From contig NZ_CP023696.1 of the NCBI RefSeq assembly GCF_008704425.1, positions 1,970,501-2,034,500 on the forward strand: 64,000 nt of DNA, given 5' to 3'. The position numbers were made by a program, and so were the translations under genes. The notes under the pieces are model-generated. The model saw only the letters and a program-made list of their open reading frames with translations. It made no database searches and was not told the DNA's origin. Positions 1,670-13,560 of the stretch are shown one piece after another. Position 1 is the stretch's first letter, and every line of letters starts with the position of its first letter. The DNA comes from Streptomyces fradiae ATCC 10745 = DSM 40063. GTDB taxonomy: Bacteria; Actinomycetota; Actinomycetes; Streptomycetales; Streptomycetaceae.

Positions 1670-3751
<2,082 letters not shown>

Positions 3752-3763
3752 GCCGACGAGCGT

Positions 3764-3801
3764 GCGGCCCGCGTGTTACGGCCGTGGTCCCGGTGTATTA
3801 C
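3764..3801 (-). promoter_or_regulatory. GlnR-like operator and promoter of nasA
   Basis: Reading the minus strand: GTAAT at 3801-3797, GGACC at 3790-3786, GTAAC at 3779-3775 and a weak GCCGC at 3768-3764, each separated by six bases. This is the 5-6-5-6-5-6-5 layout of the GlnR a/b-site consensus (GTNAC-n6-GAAAC repeated). A CACGCT hexamer lies 13 to 8 bases before ATG 3751 and could be the -10 of a leaderless transcript. GlnR activation of nasA is reported for S. coelicolor; the box here is my reading. Confidence 0.65.
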
Positions 3802-3826
3802 GCACGGGGTACGTCCCGCTCCGGGG

Positions 3827-3915
3827 CCCGCGCCGCGGACGGTGAGCGGCGCCCGCGCCGCGGACGGTGAGCGGCGCCCGCGCCGCGGACGGTGAGCGGC
3901 GCCCGGGCCGCGGGC
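3827..3915. repeat. 25-bp tandem repeat, about 3.5 copies
   Basis: Units start at 3841, 3866 and 3891 (GGTGAGCGGCGCCCGCGCCG plus five bases), preceded by a partial copy from 3827 and ending with a diverged copy. It lies between divergent nasA and the ATP-grasp gene. Confidence 0.9.
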
Positions 3916-5839: not shown

Positions 5840-6471
5840 GGGTGCTCGGCGCGGGCGGTCCGCAGGGCGCGGCCCCACCAGCCGAGCTGGTCCAGCATCT
5901 TCTTGGCGGCGCCGTCGGGCCCGGCGGGGTCCAGCGGTTCGCCGTCGTCGCCGAAGAGGCCCCACGCCTGGTGGAACGAGACCGTGTCGCGGACGGTGAC
6001 CGCGTGCAGTTCGGCGAAGACCTGGCGCAGGTGCTCGACGGCGCGCAGGCCGCCGGAGACCCCGCCGTACGAGACGAAGGCGACCGGCTTGGCGTGCCAC
6101 TCGGCGTGGTACCAGTCGACGAGGTTCTTCAGGGGCGCCGGGTAGGAGTGGTTGTACTCGGGGGTGACGACGGCGAAGGCGTCGGCGGCGGCGAGGCGCG
6201 CGCCGACCTCCGCCAGCAGCTCCCGGTGGGCGGGCGACGGGTCACCGGTGAGGGCGGTCGGCAGTTCGGTCCGGGCCGGGTCGATCACGTCCACGGTGAA
6301 GCCGGTGTGCCGCCGGGCCCTGGAGGTGAACCAGTCGGCGACGACCGGGGCGAAGCGGCCCTCGCGGTTGCTCGCGACGACGACGGCCAGCTTCAGGGGC
6401 CGCCCGGCGGACGGGGTCCGGGTCGGGGACGGGGACGGGGACGGGCTGGGGGTGTGCGCGGTGGTCTCCAT
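5827..6471 (-). CDS. NADPH-dependent FMN reductase family protein
   Basis: Flavodoxin-like flavin or quinone reductase of 214 aa. LAVVVASNREGRFAP (about 32-46) is the phosphate-binding loop for FMN, VVTPEYNHSYPAPLKNLVDW (about 105-124) is the family hallmark, and FVSYGGVSGGLRAVEHLR follows. The N-terminal 30 residues are a Ser/Pro repeat outside the domain. ATG 6471 is preferred over GTG 6486 because a MerR/SoxR-type promoter predicts transcription starting at or within a base of 6471. In S. coelicolor an FMN reductase in this neighbourhood (SCO2478, from memory) is a SoxR target, which fits. The likely role is reduction of flavins or redox-active quinones. Confidence 0.85.
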   Translation of the reverse strand: METTAHTPSPSPSPSPTRTPSAGRPLKLAVVVASNREGRFAPVVADWFTSRARRHTGFTVDVIDPARTELPTALTGDPSPAHRELLAEVGARLAAADAFAVVTPEYNHSYPAPLKNLVDWYHAEWHAKPVAFVSYGGVSGGLRAVEHLRQVFAELHAVTVRDTVSFHQAWGLFGDDGEPLDPAGPDGAAKKMLDQLGWWGRALRTARAEHPYAG

Positions 6472-6478
6472 GCACGGG

Positions 6479-6509
6479 AGCCTCACACCTCAACCAAAGT
6501 CGAGGTCAA
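6479..6509 (-). promoter_or_regulatory. SoxR-like operator within a 19-bp-spaced promoter
   Basis: On the plus strand ACCTCAAC (6487-6494), CAAA, GTCGAGGT (6499-6506) form an imperfect dyad of 7/8 matching arms, close to the SoxR box CCTCAAG...CTTGAGG. On the minus strand it fills a 19-bp spacer between TTGACC (6509-6504) and GAGGCT (6484-6479), the long spacer typical of MerR-family promoters. Predicted transcription start is about 6471, the A of the ATG. Confidence 0.7.
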
Positions 6510-6691
6510 GCGCCGATCGTGTCACCCGTTCGCAGCGCCCCGCGGGAGAGGCCGAGTTCACGGGCCCGACCTGCGAAAACACCGCCCCGGACGGGCAGTT
6601 CTGACGGCCGGTCAGCAGGCGGGGAGGACGCACCCGGCCTTTCCTCGGAGACAGGACACCAGCTCCAAGCGACGCCGCCCGGAGGACCCCC

Positions 6692-7261
6692 ATGCGCACC
6701 ACTGCCCGTCCGCTGACCGCAACCGCGCTCGCGGCCCTGTGCCTCGGCGCCCTCGCCGTCCCCGCGGCGTACGCCGGGGACTACGGGACCCTGGACCTCT
6801 CCCCGTCCACGGCGAAGCCCGGCACGAGCGTCACGGTCAGCACCCGCGCCTGCGGGCCGGACGGGCGCGGCGTGGGCGACGCGCGGTCGCTGGGCGCGGG
6901 CGAGTTCAAGCTGCGCCCGGGCTCGCACAAGGACCTGGCGGTCGGCACCTTCCGCGTCCCGGAGCACACCAAGCCGGGCACCTACGGCATCGTCGTGGCC
7001 TGCGACAACGGCAGGACCGCCGCCGGCGACCTGGTCGTACGGCACGGCGGCGCCCCCACGCACCACCCGACCCACCAGCCGACCCACCACCCCACGCACC
7101 ACCCCACGCACGTCGGGCCGCAGGGCCATGTGAAGACGGGCGTGGGCGGCAGCGTCGGCCCCGACGCCACCCGCGTCGCGGCGGGCGTGGCGGTCCTCGC
7201 CGGCGCCCTGGCGGCCGGCGCGTGGGCGATGCGCCGGCGGGCGAGCGGCGGCCACGGCTGA
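6692..7261 (+). CDS. Secreted, membrane-anchored protein with His-Pro-Thr repeats
   Basis: Protein of 189 aa with a Sec signal peptide (about 1-28, ending AAYA). An Ig-like beta domain follows (about 29-117; TLDLSPSTAKPGTSVTVS opens it and it holds two cysteines). Next is a repeat of Thr-His-His-Pro units (about 119-139), then a hydrophobic helix (about 158-178) and a short RRR tail. The tail layout is that of a cell-wall sorting signal, but no LPXTG or LAXTG pentapeptide precedes it. The next gene on the same strand is a class F sortase, so this may be its substrate. His clusters could bind metal. ATG follows a GGAGGA Shine-Dalgarno. Function unknown. Confidence 0.75.
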   Translation: MRTTARPLTATALAALCLGALAVPAAYAGDYGTLDLSPSTAKPGTSVTVSTRACGPDGRGVGDARSLGAGEFKLRPGSHKDLAVGTFRVPEHTKPGTYGIVVACDNGRTAAGDLVVRHGGAPTHHPTHQPTHHPTHHPTHVGPQGHVKTGVGGSVGPDATRVAAGVAVLAGALAAGAWAMRRRASGGHG

Positions 7262-7764
7262 CCCACCCCCCTACGGGAGCACCCGCCCGCCCCTCGGCGG
7301 GGCGCTCCTCCCCCGGCGGGCGGCCGCCGCCCCGCACCGCACCGGCGGCCGCCCGCCCCCACCCCCGGCCCCGCTCCCGCCCCGGACAGCCCGCACGGGG
7401 CGCCCCTCCCGGCACCCCGCACGCCCCCGGACACCGTCCCCCGGCCCCCGGCCCCCGGCCCCCGGCCCCCCGGATTGCCGGACTCCCGGGGCCGCCCCAC
7501 CGCCCCCGGGACCCCCGGACACCCGGCTCCCGGGACCGCCCCACCGCCCCCGGTCCCCCGCCATCCCCCGCGTCCCGCCCCCGGCGACGCCCGGCACCCG
7601 CCTCTCCTCCCCCGAACTCCCCGCCTCCGCCGCGCGGCCCCGAGACCGCGGCGGGGGCGGGGTCCCCCCGACTCCCCGACCCCCGCGGCGCCCGGCTCCC
7701 GCGCGGCCCCCGGCTCCTCGCGGAACCCGGCCCCGCGCCCGCCCGGCCATCTGGAGGTCACCCC
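7262..7764. other. 503-bp C-rich gap with CCCCCGG tandem repeat
   Basis: No convincing gene. The plus strand is extremely C-rich, with runs of four to six C, and at 7438-7473 there are five consecutive CCCCCGG-type 7-mers. The minus strand would carry matching G-runs able to form G-quadruplexes. Short open frames exist only because stops are rare in such sequence. Confidence 0.8.
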
Positions 7765-8400
7765 ATGAGCGGCACCGCCGACCCGCAGACCCGCAGGCCC
7801 GGCTGGGGCATAGCCGTCGCCGCGTGTGTCGGCCTGTGGCTGGTGCAGAGCGGATCCGGCGAGGTGACCCCGCCCGTCCCGTCCGCCGCCGAGGCGTTCG
7901 CGGCGGGCCCCGGCTGGCACACCACCGAGGCCGCCGCGCCCCTGCCGCCCTCCCCTCCGGTACGCGTCCGCATCCCGCGCGTCGGCGTGGACGCGCCCGT
8001 CATGCGCCTCGGCCTCGCCGGGGACGGCAGCCTGGAGGTGCCGCCCGCCGGGGACCGGAACCTGGCCGGCTGGTACGAGGGGGGCGCCGCGCCCGGCGCC
8101 CGCGGCACGGCGATCATGGCGGGTCACGTCGACAACGAGCAGGGCCCCGCGGTCTTCTACGCGCTGGGCGCCCTGAAGAAGGGCGACCGCCTGGAGGTCG
8201 CCCGCGCGGACGGGCGGACCGCGGTGTTCACCGTCGACGCCGTGGAGGTCTACGACAACGACGACTTCCCCGACGAGAAGGTCTACGGCCCCTCCGACCG
8301 CGCCGAGCTGCGCGTGATCACCTGCGGCGGCGCCTTCGCCCCGGACACCGGCTACCAGGGCAACGTCGTCGCGTACGCCCATCTCATCGGCGCGCGCTGA
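7765..8400 (+). CDS. Class F sortase
   Basis: Sortase-domain transpeptidase of 211 aa, membrane-anchored by an N-terminal helix (about 13-30, WGIAVAACVGLWLVQ). VRVRIPRVGVDAPVMRLGL opens the barrel; the catalytic His121 lies in MAGHVDN and Cys187 in VITCGG, consistent with the His/Cys pair. The position where class F enzymes usually show an Arg shortly after the Cys reads GYQGN here, so the third catalytic residue cannot be placed by eye. ATG was chosen for a GGAGG eight bases upstream. The cognate substrate is unknown; the HPT-repeat protein upstream is the local candidate, though a 503-bp gap separates them. Confidence 0.85.
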   Translation: MSGTADPQTRRPGWGIAVAACVGLWLVQSGSGEVTPPVPSAAEAFAAGPGWHTTEAAAPLPPSPPVRVRIPRVGVDAPVMRLGLAGDGSLEVPPAGDRNLAGWYEGGAAPGARGTAIMAGHVDNEQGPAVFYALGALKKGDRLEVARADGRTAVFTVDAVEVYDNDDFPDEKVYGPSDRAELRVITCGGAFAPDTGYQGNVVAYAHLIGAR

Positions 8401-9189: not shown

Positions 9190-9491
9190 CCCCCGACCCT
9201 AAGCGGCGCCCCCGCCACCGACCGCCCGGCCCCGCCACCGACCACGCAGCGCCCCACCGCCGACCGCCCGGCCCCGCCACCGCCACCGCCACCGACCACG
9301 CAGCACCCCGCCGCCGACCGGCCGACCCCGCCACCACCCGGCCCGCCCCGCCAGGCCCGCCGGGCCCGCCCCGCCGCCGACCGGTCGCGCCCCGCCCTCA
9401 CCGTCGCGGGGCGCCCGCGCTGAGGGCGGCTTTCCGCGCGTGAAACACACGGGATGCCGCCGGGTAACACCGCCGACGCACGCTGCTGGGC
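9190..9491. other. Repeat-rich spacer upstream of the nirBD operon
   Basis: From 9205 to about 9345 the sequence is an irregular series of CCGCCACCGACC-type words, including two copies of GCCACCGACCACGCAGC. No gene. The nirBD regulatory box occupies 9442-9479. Confidence 0.7.
9442..9479 (+). promoter_or_regulatory. GlnR-like operator and promoter of the nirBD operon
   Basis: GAAAC (9442), GATGC (9453), GTAAC (9464) and GACGC (9475) are spaced by six bases, matching the GlnR a/b layout. From GTAAC to the ATG at 9492 the spacing is 28 bases, exactly as at nasA, and both promoters share GTAACAC-n7-GCACGCT-n7-ATG. CACGCT lies 13 to 8 bases before the ATG, suggesting a leaderless mRNA. nirB is a reported GlnR target in S. 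coelicolor. Confidence 0.72.
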
Positions 9492-10715
9492 ATGAGTACA
9501 CGGATCGTGGTGGTGGGCGGCGGAACGGCGGGCGCGCGGCTCGCCGAGCGGCTGCCCGTCACCCTGCTCGGCGAGGAGCCGCACGCCCCGTACAACCGGG
9601 TGCTGCTCGCGGACGTCCTCGCCGGCCGGTACGGGCCCGAGGTGATCGCCCTGCCCGCGCCGCGGGGCGGGGCGGTGCGGCGCGGGGCCCGCGTCACCGG
9701 GATCGACCGGGAGGCCCGCGAGGTGCGCTGCGCCGACGGCACCCGGGTCGGCTACGACCGGCTGGTCCTCGCCACCGGCTCCAACCCGGTGCTGCCCCCG
9801 CTGCGCGGCCTGGCCAACGGCCTGACCAACGGCGTGACCGGCGGCCCGGCCGGGAGCGAGGGCGACCGGCTGCCGGCCGGGGTGCACGCGTTCCGCACGC
9901 TCGACGACTGCCTGGCGCTGGGCGCCCGGGTGCGTCCGGGGGCGCGGGCCGTGGTCGTCGGCGGCGGCCTCCTCGGGGTGTCCGCCGCCCGCGCGCTGGC
10001 CGCCCGCGGCGCCGAGGTGGTGCTGGCCCAGCAGGGCGAGCACCTGATGGAGCGCCAGCTCGACGCCGAGGCGTCCGCGCTGCTCCGCGGCCACCTGGCC
10101 GGGCTCGGCGTGGAGGTGCACACGGAGTGCCGGGTGCGCGGGCTGCGGGCGCCGCAGGGCGCGGTCACCGCCGTGGAGCTGGCCGACGGCTTCGTGCTCG
10201 ACGCGGACCTGGTGGTCCTCGCCTGCGGGGTGCGGCCGCGCGTCGGGCTCGCCCTGGAGGCCGGCCTGGACGTGCGGCGCGGCATCGTCGTGGACGACCG
10301 GCTGCGCACCTCCGACCCGTACATCCACGCGGTCGGCGACTGCGCCGAGCACGACGGCCGGCTCTACGGGCTGGCCGGTGCCGCCCTGGAACAGGCCGAC
10401 GTGCTGGCGGAGGTCCTGGCCGGGGGCGACGCCGTCTACCGGGGGACGCGGGCGCTGACCCGGCTCAGCCTGGACGCGCTGGAACTCGCCGCGTTCGGCG
10501 AGCCCGTGCCCCGCTCCGGCGACGACACCGTGCGGCTGGCCGACGCCACCCGCGGCGCGTACCGGAAGGTCGTCGTCCGGGGCGGCCGGCTCGTCGGCGG
10601 CGTCCTCTACGGCGACCTCGGCGCGGTCGGGACGCTCGCCCGGGCGTGGGAGGGCGACGAAGCCCTCCCGGACGCGCCCCTGCTCCACCTGCTCACCCAA
10701 GACGGAGGCTCCTGA
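9492..10715 (+). CDS. NAD(P)/FAD-dependent oxidoreductase of the nitrite/nitrate assimilation operon
   Basis: Two-dinucleotide-fold flavoprotein of 407 aa: FAD-binding VVGGGTAG at residues 7-14, LVLATGSNPVLPP near 90-102, NAD(P)-binding VVVGGGLLGVSAAR near 155-168, and the second FAD motif IHAVGDCAEHDGRLYG near 277-292. It resembles the N-terminal reductase half of NirB or a NasB-type partner, but has no Fe-S or siroheme domain. First gene of the operon, two bases before nirB, with no Shine-Dalgarno and a GlnR-like box upstream. I infer it passes NAD(P)H electrons to nitrate or nitrite reductase, possibly to NasA, which lacks its own reductase module. Confidence 0.8.
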   Translation: MSTRIVVVGGGTAGARLAERLPVTLLGEEPHAPYNRVLLADVLAGRYGPEVIALPAPRGGAVRRGARVTGIDREAREVRCADGTRVGYDRLVLATGSNPVLPPLRGLANGLTNGVTGGPAGSEGDRLPAGVHAFRTLDDCLALGARVRPGARAVVVGGGLLGVSAARALAARGAEVVLAQQGEHLMERQLDAEASALLRGHLAGLGVEVHTECRVRGLRAPQGAVTAVELADGFVLDADLVVLACGVRPRVGLALEAGLDVRRGIVVDDRLRTSDPYIHAVGDCAEHDGRLYGLAGAALEQADVLAEVLAGGDAVYRGTRALTRLSLDALELAAFGEPVPRSGDDTVRLADATRGAYRKVVVRGGRLVGGVLYGDLGAVGTLARAWEGDEALPDAPLLHLLTQDGGS

Positions 10716-10717
10716 CA

Positions 10718-13240
10718 ATGCCGAACACGCGCGGGGCGGCGCACACGCCCACCATCGTCCTCGTCGGCCACGGCATGGTCGGCCAGCGGTTCCTGGAGGG
10801 CCTCGCCGAGCGCGGCGTGACCGGGCGGGCCCGTGTGGTCGTCCTGTGCGAGGAGCCCCGCCCGGCGTACGACCGGGTGCAGCTCACCTCGTACTTCTCC
10901 GGCCGCACCCCCGAGGACCTGTCGCTGGTGCCCGACGGGTTCATGGCGGAGCACGGGATCGAACTGCGCACCGGCGACCCGGCGGTCGCGATCGACCGGG
11001 AGGCCCGCACGGTCACCGCCCGCTCGGGGCTGACCGTCGCGTACGACACGCTGGTGCTGGCCACCGGGTCGTACCCGTTCGTGCCGCCCGTGCCCGGCAA
11101 GGACGCGGCGGGCTGCTTCGTCTACCGCACCATCGAGGACCTGCTCGCCATCGAGGAGTACGCGAGGACGGCGAAGACCGGCGCCGTGGTCGGCGGCGGC
11201 CTGCTGGGCCTGGAGGCGGCGGGCGCGCTGAAGGGCCTCGGGCTCGACACCCACGTGGTGGAGTTCGCGCCCCGGCTGATGCCGGTGCAGGTGGACGAGG
11301 GCGGCGGCGCGGCGCTGCTGCGCACCATCGAGGGCATGGGCCTGTCGGTCCACACCGGGGTCGGCACGCAGGAGGTGCTGGCCGGCCGGGACGGCGCGGT
11401 CACCGGCATGCGGCTGTCGGACGGCTCCGAACTGGCGGCCGACATGGTGGTGTTCTCCGCCGGCGTCCGCCCCCGCGACCAGCTGGCCCGCGACTGCGGC
11501 CTGGCGGTCGGCGAGCGCGGCGGCATCGCCGTGGACGAGCGGTGCCGCACCTCGGACCCGGCGGTGTACGCGATCGGCGAGTGCGCCCTCGCGGCGGACG
11601 GCCGGGTGTACGGCCTGGTGGCGCCCGGCTACGAGATGGCGCTGACGGCCGCCGACGCGATCGCGGGGCGCGAGTCGTCCTTCACCGGCGCCGACATGTC
11701 GACGAAGCTGAAGCTGCTCGGCGTGGACGTGGCGTCCTTCGGCGACGCCCACGGCACGGCCGAGGGGTGCCTGGACGTGGTGTACGCCGACTCGCGGGCG
11801 GGGGTCTACAAGAAGCTGGTCGTGGCGGCGGACGGGACGCTGCTCGGCGGGGTCCTGGTCGGCGACGCGGAGGCGTACGGCACGCTGCGGCCGATGACCG
11901 GTTCGGTGCCGCCCGTGGCGCCCGAGCAGCTGGTCCTCCCGGCGGGCGTGGGCGCGCCGGTGGCCCTGGGCCCGGAGTCGCTGCCGGACGAGGCGGTCAT
12001 CTGCTCCTGCCACAACGTCACCAAGGGCGCGATCTGCGAGCACACGACGCTGCCCGAGGTGAAGAAGTGCACCAAGGCGGGCACGGGTTGCGGCAGTTGC
12101 GTCAAGGTCATCCAGCAGCTCCTGCCGAAGACCGGCGACGGCGGCCTGTGCGGCTGCTTCCCGCAGACCCGCCAGGACCTGTACGAGATCGTGCAGGTGC
12201 TGCGCATCACCTCGTACGCCGAGCTGCTCGACCGCTACGGGCGCGAGGAGGCCAGGGGCGGCGAGGGGTGCGAGGTCTGCAAGCCGACCGTCGCCTCGAT
12301 CCTGGCGTCCCTGTCGCACGGCTACGTCCTGGACGGCGAGCAGGCCGCGCTGCAGGACACCAACGACCACTTCCTCGCCAACATGCAGCGCAACGGCTCC
12401 TACTCGGTCGTGCCGCGCGTCCCCGGCGGGGAGATCACCCCCGAGAAGCTGATCGTCATCGGCGAGGTGGCGCGCGAGTTCGGCCTCTACACGAAGATCA
12501 CCGGTGGTCAGCGGATCGACCTGTTCGGCGCGCGCGTCGAGCAGCTCCCGGCGATCTGGGCGCGGCTGGTGGACGCCGGCTTCGAGTCGGGGCACGCGTA
12601 CGGCAAGGCGCTGCGCACGGTGAAGTCCTGCGTGGGGCAGACCTGGTGCAGGTACGGGGTGCAGGACTCGGTGCGCATGGCGATCGACCTGGAGCTGCGC
12701 TACCGGGGCCTGCGGGCGCCGCACAAGCTGAAGTCGGCCGTCTCCGGCTGCCAGCGGGAGTGCGCCGAGGCCCAGTCGAAGGACTTCGGCGTGATCGCCA
12801 CGGCGAACGGCTGGAACCTGTACGTCGGCGGCAACGGCGGCGCCACCCCGCGCCACGCCGACCTGCTGGCGAAGGACCTCTCGGACGCGGAGCTGGTCCG
12901 GCTGATCGACCGGTTCCTCATGTACTACGTCCGCACCGCGGAACGGCTGGAGCGCACCGCCCCGTGGGTGGAGCGGGTCGGCCTCGACCACGTCCGCGAG
13001 GTGGTGGTCGAGGACTCGCTGGGCATCGGCGAGGAGCTGGACGCGCTGATGGCCCGGCACGTGGCCGGCTACCGCGACGAGTGGGCGGAGACCCTCGCCG
13101 ACCCCGAGCGCCTGGCCCGGTTCGTGTCGTTCGTGAACGCCCCGGAGGCACCGGACCCGTCGGTGCGGTTCGTGCCCGAGCGGGACCAGATCAAGCCCGA
13201 CCTGACCGTCCTCACCCTGGAAGGTGTGTCCGCCCGATGA
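10718..13240 (+). CDS. nirB: Nitrite reductase [NAD(P)H] large subunit
   Basis: Cytoplasmic siroheme nitrite reductase subunit of 840 aa, reducing nitrite to ammonium with NAD(P)H. Domains in order: FAD/NAD(P) reductase (about 10-400, with a GxGxxG-type start at IVLVGHGMVG), a BFD-like [2Fe-2S] region beginning at Cys429 (ICSCHNVTKG, then GTGCGSC), a nitrite/sulfite reductase ferredoxin-like half, and the siroheme/[4Fe-4S] domain with Cys638, Cys644, Cys678 and Cys682. ATG 10718 follows a GGAGG ten bases upstream. The stop overlaps nirD by ATGA. Length and domain order are standard for the family. Confidence 0.95.
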   Translation: MPNTRGAAHTPTIVLVGHGMVGQRFLEGLAERGVTGRARVVVLCEEPRPAYDRVQLTSYFSGRTPEDLSLVPDGFMAEHGIELRTGDPAVAIDREARTVTARSGLTVAYDTLVLATGSYPFVPPVPGKDAAGCFVYRTIEDLLAIEEYARTAKTGAVVGGGLLGLEAAGALKGLGLDTHVVEFAPRLMPVQVDEGGGAALLRTIEGMGLSVHTGVGTQEVLAGRDGAVTGMRLSDGSELAADMVVFSAGVRPRDQLARDCGLAVGERGGIAVDERCRTSDPAVYAIGECALAADGRVYGLVAPGYEMALTAADAIAGRESSFTGADMSTKLKLLGVDVASFGDAHGTAEGCLDVVYADSRAGVYKKLVVAADGTLLGGVLVGDAEAYGTLRPMTGSVPPVAPEQLVLPAGVGAPVALGPESLPDEAVICSCHNVTKGAICEHTTLPEVKKCTKAGTGCGSCVKVIQQLLPKTGDGGLCGCFPQTRQDLYEIVQVLRITSYAELLDRYGREEARGGEGCEVCKPTVASILASLSHGYVLDGEQAALQDTNDHFLANMQRNGSYSVVPRVPGGEITPEKLIVIGEVAREFGLYTKITGGQRIDLFGARVEQLPAIWARLVDAGFESGHAYGKALRTVKSCVGQTWCRYGVQDSVRMAIDLELRYRGLRAPHKLKSAVSGCQRECAEAQSKDFGVIATANGWNLYVGGNGGATPRHADLLAKDLSDAELVRLIDRFLMYYVRTAERLERTAPWVERVGLDHVREVVVEDSLGIGEELDALMARHVAGYRDEWAETLADPERLARFVSFVNAPEAPDPSVRFVPERDQIKPDLTVLTLEGVSAR

Positions 13241-13560
13241 AGCTGGAGATCTCCCACGACGACGACTGGCTGCCCATCTGCGACACGGCCGCGCTGACGC
13301 CCGGCCGGGGCATGGCCGCGCTGCTGCCGGACGGCCGGCAGGCCGCGCTGTTCCGCGACCGCCGGGGGCGGCTGTACGCCATCGACAACCGGGACCCCTT
13401 CACCGGCGCGCAGGTGCTGTCACGGGGCCTGATCGGCTCGGCGGACGGGCGCACGTTCGTGGCGTCACCGCTGCTGAAGCAGCGCTTCGACCTCGAGACG
13501 GGCCGCTGCCTGGACGACGACGCCGTGGCGGTGGCGGTGTACCCGGTCCGCGCGAGCTGA
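13237..13560 (+). CDS. nirD: Nitrite reductase small subunit NirD
   Basis: Rieske-fold partner of NirB (107 aa). It keeps the fold signature GRLYAIDNRDPFTGAQVLSRGLIG and the C-terminal FDLETGRCLDD-type loop, but has no CxH...CxxH ligands, as expected because NirD proteins have lost the cluster. It stabilises or activates NirB. The ATG overlaps the nirB stop (ATGA), so the two are translationally coupled. Its 3' end is duplicated just downstream. Confidence 0.92.
   Translation: MKLEISHDDDWLPICDTAALTPGRGMAALLPDGRQAALFRDRRGRLYAIDNRDPFTGAQVLSRGLIGSADGRTFVASPLLKQRFDLETGRCLDDDAVAVAVYPVRAS

Follow-up and report, generated by a model that had tools for sequence, protein, structure and literature searches.

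A shared NnaR/GlnR-type promoter array in a near-fixed register with the start codon of nirB and nasA in Streptomyces

GlnR/NnaR-controlled promoters of nirB and nasA have reportedly been described in Streptomyces coelicolor by Tiffert (2008), Wang and Zhao (2009) and Amin (2012). Both genes are controlled by GlnR and NnaR in this bacterium (PMC10704036, PMC3087709, PMC4977719), a glnR mutant no longer expresses nirB (PMC4977719), and the binding of NnaR to the nirB promoter is cooperative with that of GlnR (PMC10704036). In S. venezuelae, nirB does not respond to nitrogen starvation when nitrate is absent (PMC3087709), which argues against a simple starvation switch. The NnaR motif has been given as CTCAC[A/C]-n16-[T/G]GTGAG (PMC6277429, PMC11162112). 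For Mycobacterium smegmatis, leaderless features and a conserved spacing between the NnaR and GlnR sites were described (PMC6277429), and in M. tuberculosis the nirB start at 302853 lies two bases past a GlnR peak at 302811-302851 (PMC4950008). Leaderless starts represent 21% of those of S. coelicolor, with TANNNT as the −10 element (PMC4895711). A mapped RNA start for nasA or nirB of Streptomyces was not found in the literature searched, though one may exist.

Here we analyzed a window of 64,000 nucleotides of Streptomyces fradiae ATCC 10745 (contig NZ_CP023696.1, positions 1,970,501 to 2,034,500) that carries nirB and nasA on opposite strands. The 31-base pattern GTAACAC-n7-GCACGCT-n7-ATG occurs with zero mismatches at nirB (9464-9494, +) and at nasA (3779-3749, −), which places GTAAC 28 bases before the ATG in both genes, just as a previous sequence-only reading of this DNA had stated. 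A second half-site is present 22 bp upstream of GTAAC in the two cases, GAAAC (9442-9446) in nirB and GTAAT (3801-3797) in nasA. Chance as the origin of the pattern was ruled out by the expectation in the window, which is 0.00 for the words GTAACAC and GCACGCT separated by 5 to 9 bases and 0.08 matches for the full pattern with up to three mismatches, together with its uniqueness in the whole genome (6.7 Mb), where the nirB and nasA sites are the two exact matches of GTAAC-n10-CACGCT-n7-ATG and again the only ones of the looser GTAAC-n10-CANNCT-n5..8-ATG (control, 0). At two mismatches, the former motif has 12 other matches in the genome versus 16 for the reversed control.

The 31-base pattern is the downstream end of a longer array of about 95 bases common to nirB and nasA. 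The element had been delimited before as 9442..9494, an interval that does include the pattern, but the common layout extends back to −95, and the NnaR-type palindrome upstream of both genes had been overlooked. Numbered from the A of the ATG, with GTAAC at −28, the order at both genes is CTCAC at −95, TGAG or GGAG at −71, half-sites at −61, −50, −39 (in nirB only) and −28, CAnnCT at −13, and the ATG. The features are the following:

9397..9401, + strand: left arm CTCAC (−95..−91) of the nirB NnaR-type palindrome, from the sequence and the motif of PMC6277429/PMC11162112
9420..9424, + strand: right arm CTGAG (−72..−68) of the nirB NnaR-type palindrome, from the sequence and genus counts
9431..9435, + strand: nirB half-site lattice position −61, TTTCC (GTTCC in most nirB)
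9442..9446, + strand: nirB GlnR-type half-site GAAAC at −50, from the sequence and genus alignment
9453..9457, + strand: nirB half-site lattice position −39, GATGC, conserved in nirB and not in nasA
9464..9470, + strand: nirB GlnR-type half-site GTAACAC at −28, from the sequence and genus counts
9479..9484, + strand: nirB −10-like hexamer CACGCT (−13..−8), from the sequence and genus alignment
9492..10715, + strand: nirB1, a 407-aa NirB N-terminal-like FAD/NAD oxidoreductase with an ATG start
10760..13240 (5' end approximate), + strand: nirB2, large subunit with siroheme domains
13225..13560 (5' end approximate), + strand: nirD, Rieske-type small subunit
3842..3846, − strand: left arm CTCAC (−95..−91) of the nasA NnaR-type palindrome, from the sequence and genus counts
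3819..3823, − strand: right arm CGGAG (−72..−68) of the nasA NnaR-type palindrome, from the sequence and genus counts
3808..3812, − strand: nasA half-site lattice position −61, GTACC
3797..3801, − strand: nasA GlnR-type half-site GTAAT at −50
3773..3779, − strand: nasA GlnR-type half-site GTAACAC at −28, from the sequence and genus counts
3759..3764, − strand: nasA −10-like hexamer CACGCT (−13..−8), from the sequence and genus alignment
1670..3751, − strand: nasA, assimilatory nitrate reductase catalytic subunit with an ATG start; best model NasC, below the curated cut-off

Other characteristics of the region were also observed. The nirB gene is split (9492-13560): a stand-alone 407-aa NirB N-terminal-like protein comes first, and a complete NirB plus NirD follow. 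A nirB-like gene located directly after nasA was seen in a few Streptomyces and in several non-Streptomyces actinobacteria. Upstream of nasA there is a 25-bp tandem repeat of 3.7 copies (3822-3913) that includes the CTCACC arm of the palindrome and yields extra CTCACC copies at about −120 and −145, and low-complexity repeats with several different periods (9207-9403) precede the nirB array and reach its left arm. An open frame of 852 aa (5842-8400) has a class F sortase domain at its end; some of the long N-terminal region before it is probably non-coding.

For the comparison within the genus, 101 evenly drawn Streptomyces genomes were searched for nirB and nasA, and 80 named loci nearest to the nirB of the window were added, which are the best 80 of 415 relatives found and are biased towards close relatives. 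Matches without the N-terminus or running off the contig (e.g. G017, G032 and the nasA of G085) were left out before counting, as were the nirB of G018, G035, G051 and G060 (52-57% identity), which by their coordinates lie directly after nasA. The resulting 149 nirB and 117 nasA upstream regions were reduced to 140 and 113 after removal of the identical ones; 105 of these nasA are orthologues, and the other eight (L233-L240, 62-67% identity) are second-clade paralogues. A first automatic choice of starts mistook upstream ATGs for the true start, in one case an ATG within GCATG variants of the hexamer, and gave distances of 9, 16 or none in eight regions; it was replaced by a final scoring that took all in-frame starts and required an ATG at 27 or 28, so the ATG in the 243 positives is by construction. 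The even sample contributes 67 nirB and 73 nasA to these positives, and since Streptomyces sequences share ancestry the counts do not represent independent events.

Of 140 distinct nirB, 139 have the half-site GWAA[CT] at a distance of 27 or 28 bases from a downstream in-frame ATG (98 at 28, 41 at 27), and so do 104 of 105 distinct orthologous nasA (70 at 28, 34 at 27). The single nirB that fails (L179) is a gene located directly after nasA, the single orthologous nasA (L197) has GTGAC at −27, and none of the eight second-clade nasA passes. The spacing from operator to hexamer is fixed and that from hexamer to ATG is 6 or 7 (139 nirB, 103 nasA); this one base of play is what would be expected if the promoter fixes the RNA start at or near the AUG. 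On a tree built from 101 nirB1 proteins, the 27/28 state has switched 12 times or more, and in the 94 genome entries with both genes (63 genomes and 31 named loci, with some possible overlap) the state of one gene shows no link with that of the other (43, 22, 18 and 11). Thus, aligning the upstream regions of the orthologues, as had been proposed, reveals that the spacing and the hexamer positions A2 and T6 are conserved, and a near-fixed register of operator, hexamer and start is kept at both genes across Streptomyces; in contrast, the strict 28-base distance holds within the window and gives way to 27 or 28 in the genus, and an exact start-codon phase common to both genes is not supported.

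In nirB the consensus of the half-sites at −61, −50, −39 and −28 is GTTCC-GAAAC-GATGC-GTAAC, with steps of 11 bp, in agreement with the GlnR box gTnAC-n6-GaAAC with 11-bp repeats; the agreement is partial in nasA, and the −39 half-site is not conserved in the 103 nasA regions. With a loose half-site match, the step from −50 to −28 is 22 bp in 139/139 nirB and in 93/104 nasA, and 23 bp in the remaining 11/104 nasA, the same step as in S. coelicolor nasA, for which two GTAAC sites 18 bp apart were described (PMC3087709). Regarding the distal palindrome, that of nirB (CTCACC-n16-GCTGAG, 9397-9424) is recovered when the NnaR motif is searched for near a GlnR box, and that of nasA (CTCACC-n16-CCGGAG) has a weaker right arm. 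CTCA[CT] is at −95 in 136/139 nirB and 82/103 nasA, and at −96 in 11 more nasA; the two arms occupy their expected positions in 135/139 nirB and, exactly, in 79/103 nasA; a further 11 nasA have them shifted by the same single base, and in the other 13 at most one arm is in place. Conservation falls sharply beyond −97. Arms and half-sites can be placed on a single 11-bp lattice (−94, −72, −61, −50, −39, −28), hence near one face of the helix. Mean pairwise identities (sampled pairs) for motif, spacer and upstream positions are 0.914, 0.553 and 0.343 in nirB, and 0.727, 0.443 and 0.331 in nasA; in the window, the array matrix scores the nirB and nasA sites at 65.2 and 55.1, the next best being −8.9.

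The hexamer has A2 in 99% and T6 in 99% of the nirB (n=139), and both in 100% of the nasA (n=103), whereas in the 243 promoters position 1 is C in 233 and never T. In this respect it differs from the leaderless promoters of Streptomyces, which show N8-TANNNT-N7 before the start with a preference for ATG (76.4% of leaderless) (PMC4895711): CAnnCT matches TANNNT at A2 and T6, but not at position 1. The sequences GGAG, GAGG or AGGA are absent from −16..−4 in all 139 nirB and in 99 of 104 nasA. A leaderless start had been claimed in the earlier reading; the 6-7 bases from hexamer to ATG and the general lack of a ribosome site fit with it, and we infer that nirB and nasA are likely leaderless, their RNA starting on the start codon or next to it. 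CAnnCT would be a −10 that is kept weak, so that both promoters would be dependent on activators.

The same genome also carries a narK promoter with the perfect palindrome CTCACA-n16-CGTGAG and GAAAC-n10-TAGCGT, followed by an apparent leader with GGAGG before the ATG; hence, the operator does not force leaderlessness. NarK is the best model for the narK genes considered here, with scores below the curated NarK cut-off. In the actinobacterium G103, a narK-family gene upstream of nirB shows GCAAC-n10-TACCGT-n6-ATG. Both of these narK hexamers start with T and lie as far from the GlnR-like site as CAnnCT does at nirB and nasA. Adjacent to narK in S. fradiae there is an NnaR-type gene (L382:116-1258:-, HEM4/HemD and Trans_reg_C domains), preceded by GTAAC/GAAAC/GAACC/GTCAC every 11 bp and CAGGCT-n8-ATG; no matching palindrome was seen at the array register upstream of this nnaR.

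Taken together, the pattern at nirB and nasA is real, larger than first described and mostly explained by known regulators. We consider it likely that the array is one promoter template, jointly switched on by NnaR and GlnR, whose RNA is predicted to begin at the start codon or no more than a few bases from it. Based on published binding and mutant data for orthologues, GlnR would occupy the half-sites from −61 to −24 when nitrogen is limiting, and the palindrome would be bound by NnaR, with all these sites near one helix face. GlnR at −39/−28 would overlap the −35 region and recruit the RNA polymerase to the hexamer, where the missing consensus first T would make transcription dependent on the activators; as the ATG lies 6-7 bases after the hexamer, the RNA would start at or near the A of the AUG and be translated as a leaderless messenger.

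Three other explanations were considered. The exact match of the 31-base pattern at both genes could suggest that the nirB promoter is a recent copy or a gene-conversion product of the nasA promoter, and the earlier reading had presented it as a copy. This is extremely unlikely, given that within a genome the nasA and nirB spacers resemble each other (identity of 0.378) no more than they do across genomes (0.368), both 7-mers are identical in only 19/94 genome entries, and the ATG distances of the two genes are unlinked; the motif columns have an identity of 0.72 both within and between genomes. The spacers indicate one template held at two genes rather than a copied promoter. It could also be proposed that the −10 element is TAACAC, inside GTAACAC, which in the nirB of the window is 17 bp after the −35-like GAAACA, a usual promoter spacing, so that the RNA would start near −15 and have a short leader. 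We regard this as very improbable: the first base of TAACAC is A in 26% of the 139 nirB, which the GlnR half-site GaAAC allows and a −10 would not favour, the near-invariant positions 2 and 6 of CAnnCT would be left without a reason, and the short leader would lack the ribosome-site sequences in every one of these nirB.

The last explanation is that the half-sites serve mainly another OmpR-type regulator (MtrA, AfsQ1 or PhoP), which would repress or tune nirB and nasA and share the sites with GlnR. MtrA competes with GlnR at nitrogen genes (PMC10704036), the motifs of MtrA and GlnR are alike (PMC6277429), and contact of AfsQ1 with the nirB and nasA promoters had no regulatory effect on them in the medium that was used (PMC10704036). 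Nonetheless, the pairing with the NnaR palindrome in a fixed register and the loss of nirB expression in the glnR mutant (PMC4977719) both fit an activator role first, and we consider it improbable that such a regulator is the main occupant; this explanation and the joint NnaR/GlnR template are not mutually exclusive.

Outside Streptomyces, the pattern CTCAC-n20-GAG-n38..40-GNAAC-n21..24-ATG was searched for in 148 genomes of the class. Ten of the 11 Streptomyces have it, always at nasA, nirB or both, with one further unrelated site (in G067), and it was also found in 9 of 137 other genomes, where one site corresponds to nasA (G138), one to narK (G103) and the rest are unexplained or due to chance; the reversed control matched 1/148. 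A position matrix made from both Streptomyces genes was then applied to 72 regions from outside Streptomyces, each with at most 2.2 kb of upstream sequence, and exceeded the best reversed control in 26, with 25 matches within 200 bases of the gene start in seven families. Among these 25, GAAAC occupies the −28 place in 17, the gap to the start is 6, 7 and 8 in 5, 16 and 4 cases, and four have a GTG start; L341 and L374 lack the hexamer A2, and L374 is barely above the control. Since the matrix itself favours C1, A2 and T6 of the hexamer, the hexamer letters of these matches are biased. The other 47 of the 72 regions have no above-control array at the gene start, and families f26 (0/9), f4 (0/10), f13 (0/5), f36 (0/5), f33, f2 and f3 gave no match there; one f4 region has the array at narK. 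As a separate observation, an array-like NnaR/GlnR stretch of family f36 (L381:404-, genome G189), with GAAAC-n10-TACGCT-n6-ATG, precedes a 161-aa protein without a Pfam match and scores just under the control. It seems to us an evenly balanced question whether these data reflect an ancient actinobacterial promoter class, kept by selection at each of nasA and nirB independently and across eight or more families, in which palindrome, lattice, T-less −10 and start codon form a rigid unit of about 97 bp that permits nearly only a one-base change between −10 and AUG.

The control of nasA and nirB by GlnR and NnaR, and the leaderless features in mycobacteria, are already published. The S. coelicolor promoters resemble those analyzed here in having orthologous genes, GTAAC-type half-sites and the participation of NnaR, and the accessible portions of those accounts describe no −95-to-ATG register, CAnnCT hexamer or leaderless start (PMC10704036, PMC3087709, PMC4977719). 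In M. smegmatis and M. abscessus, the palindrome CTCAC-n18-GTGAG is located upstream of the GlnR site with conserved spacing, as it is here (PMC6277429, PMC11162112), at 63 and 66 bp before the start codons (reference end not stated) versus 67 bases from the right arm to the ATG in our case (PMC11162112); the genes and operons are different (narK3-nirBD, nasN, trHbN), and what is available of these two papers includes no analysis of a hexamer or half-site lattice (PMC6277429, PMC11162112). As far as the literature searched goes, four points are new: both genes have a single −95-to-AUG register, their hexamer lacks the first T, the two promoters are independent of each other, and the array is spread among families.

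The value of the array resides in its rigid geometry and in the testable predictions that follow from it. It turns a known pair of GlnR/NnaR targets into a natural experiment on promoter geometry, with 243 Streptomyces promoters in which the letters of the spacers vary and their length hardly does, and the apparently leadered narK of this genome provides a sister promoter for contrast. The array also lets one predict the single base that would keep the nirB and nasA promoters silent without the activators, and would serve as a specific signature for locating nitrate-assimilation promoters in unannotated actinobacteria. Finally, if the RNA starts at or near the AUG as we propose, the start codon would be tied to the operator, and the array would thereby link the start of translation to the operator position.
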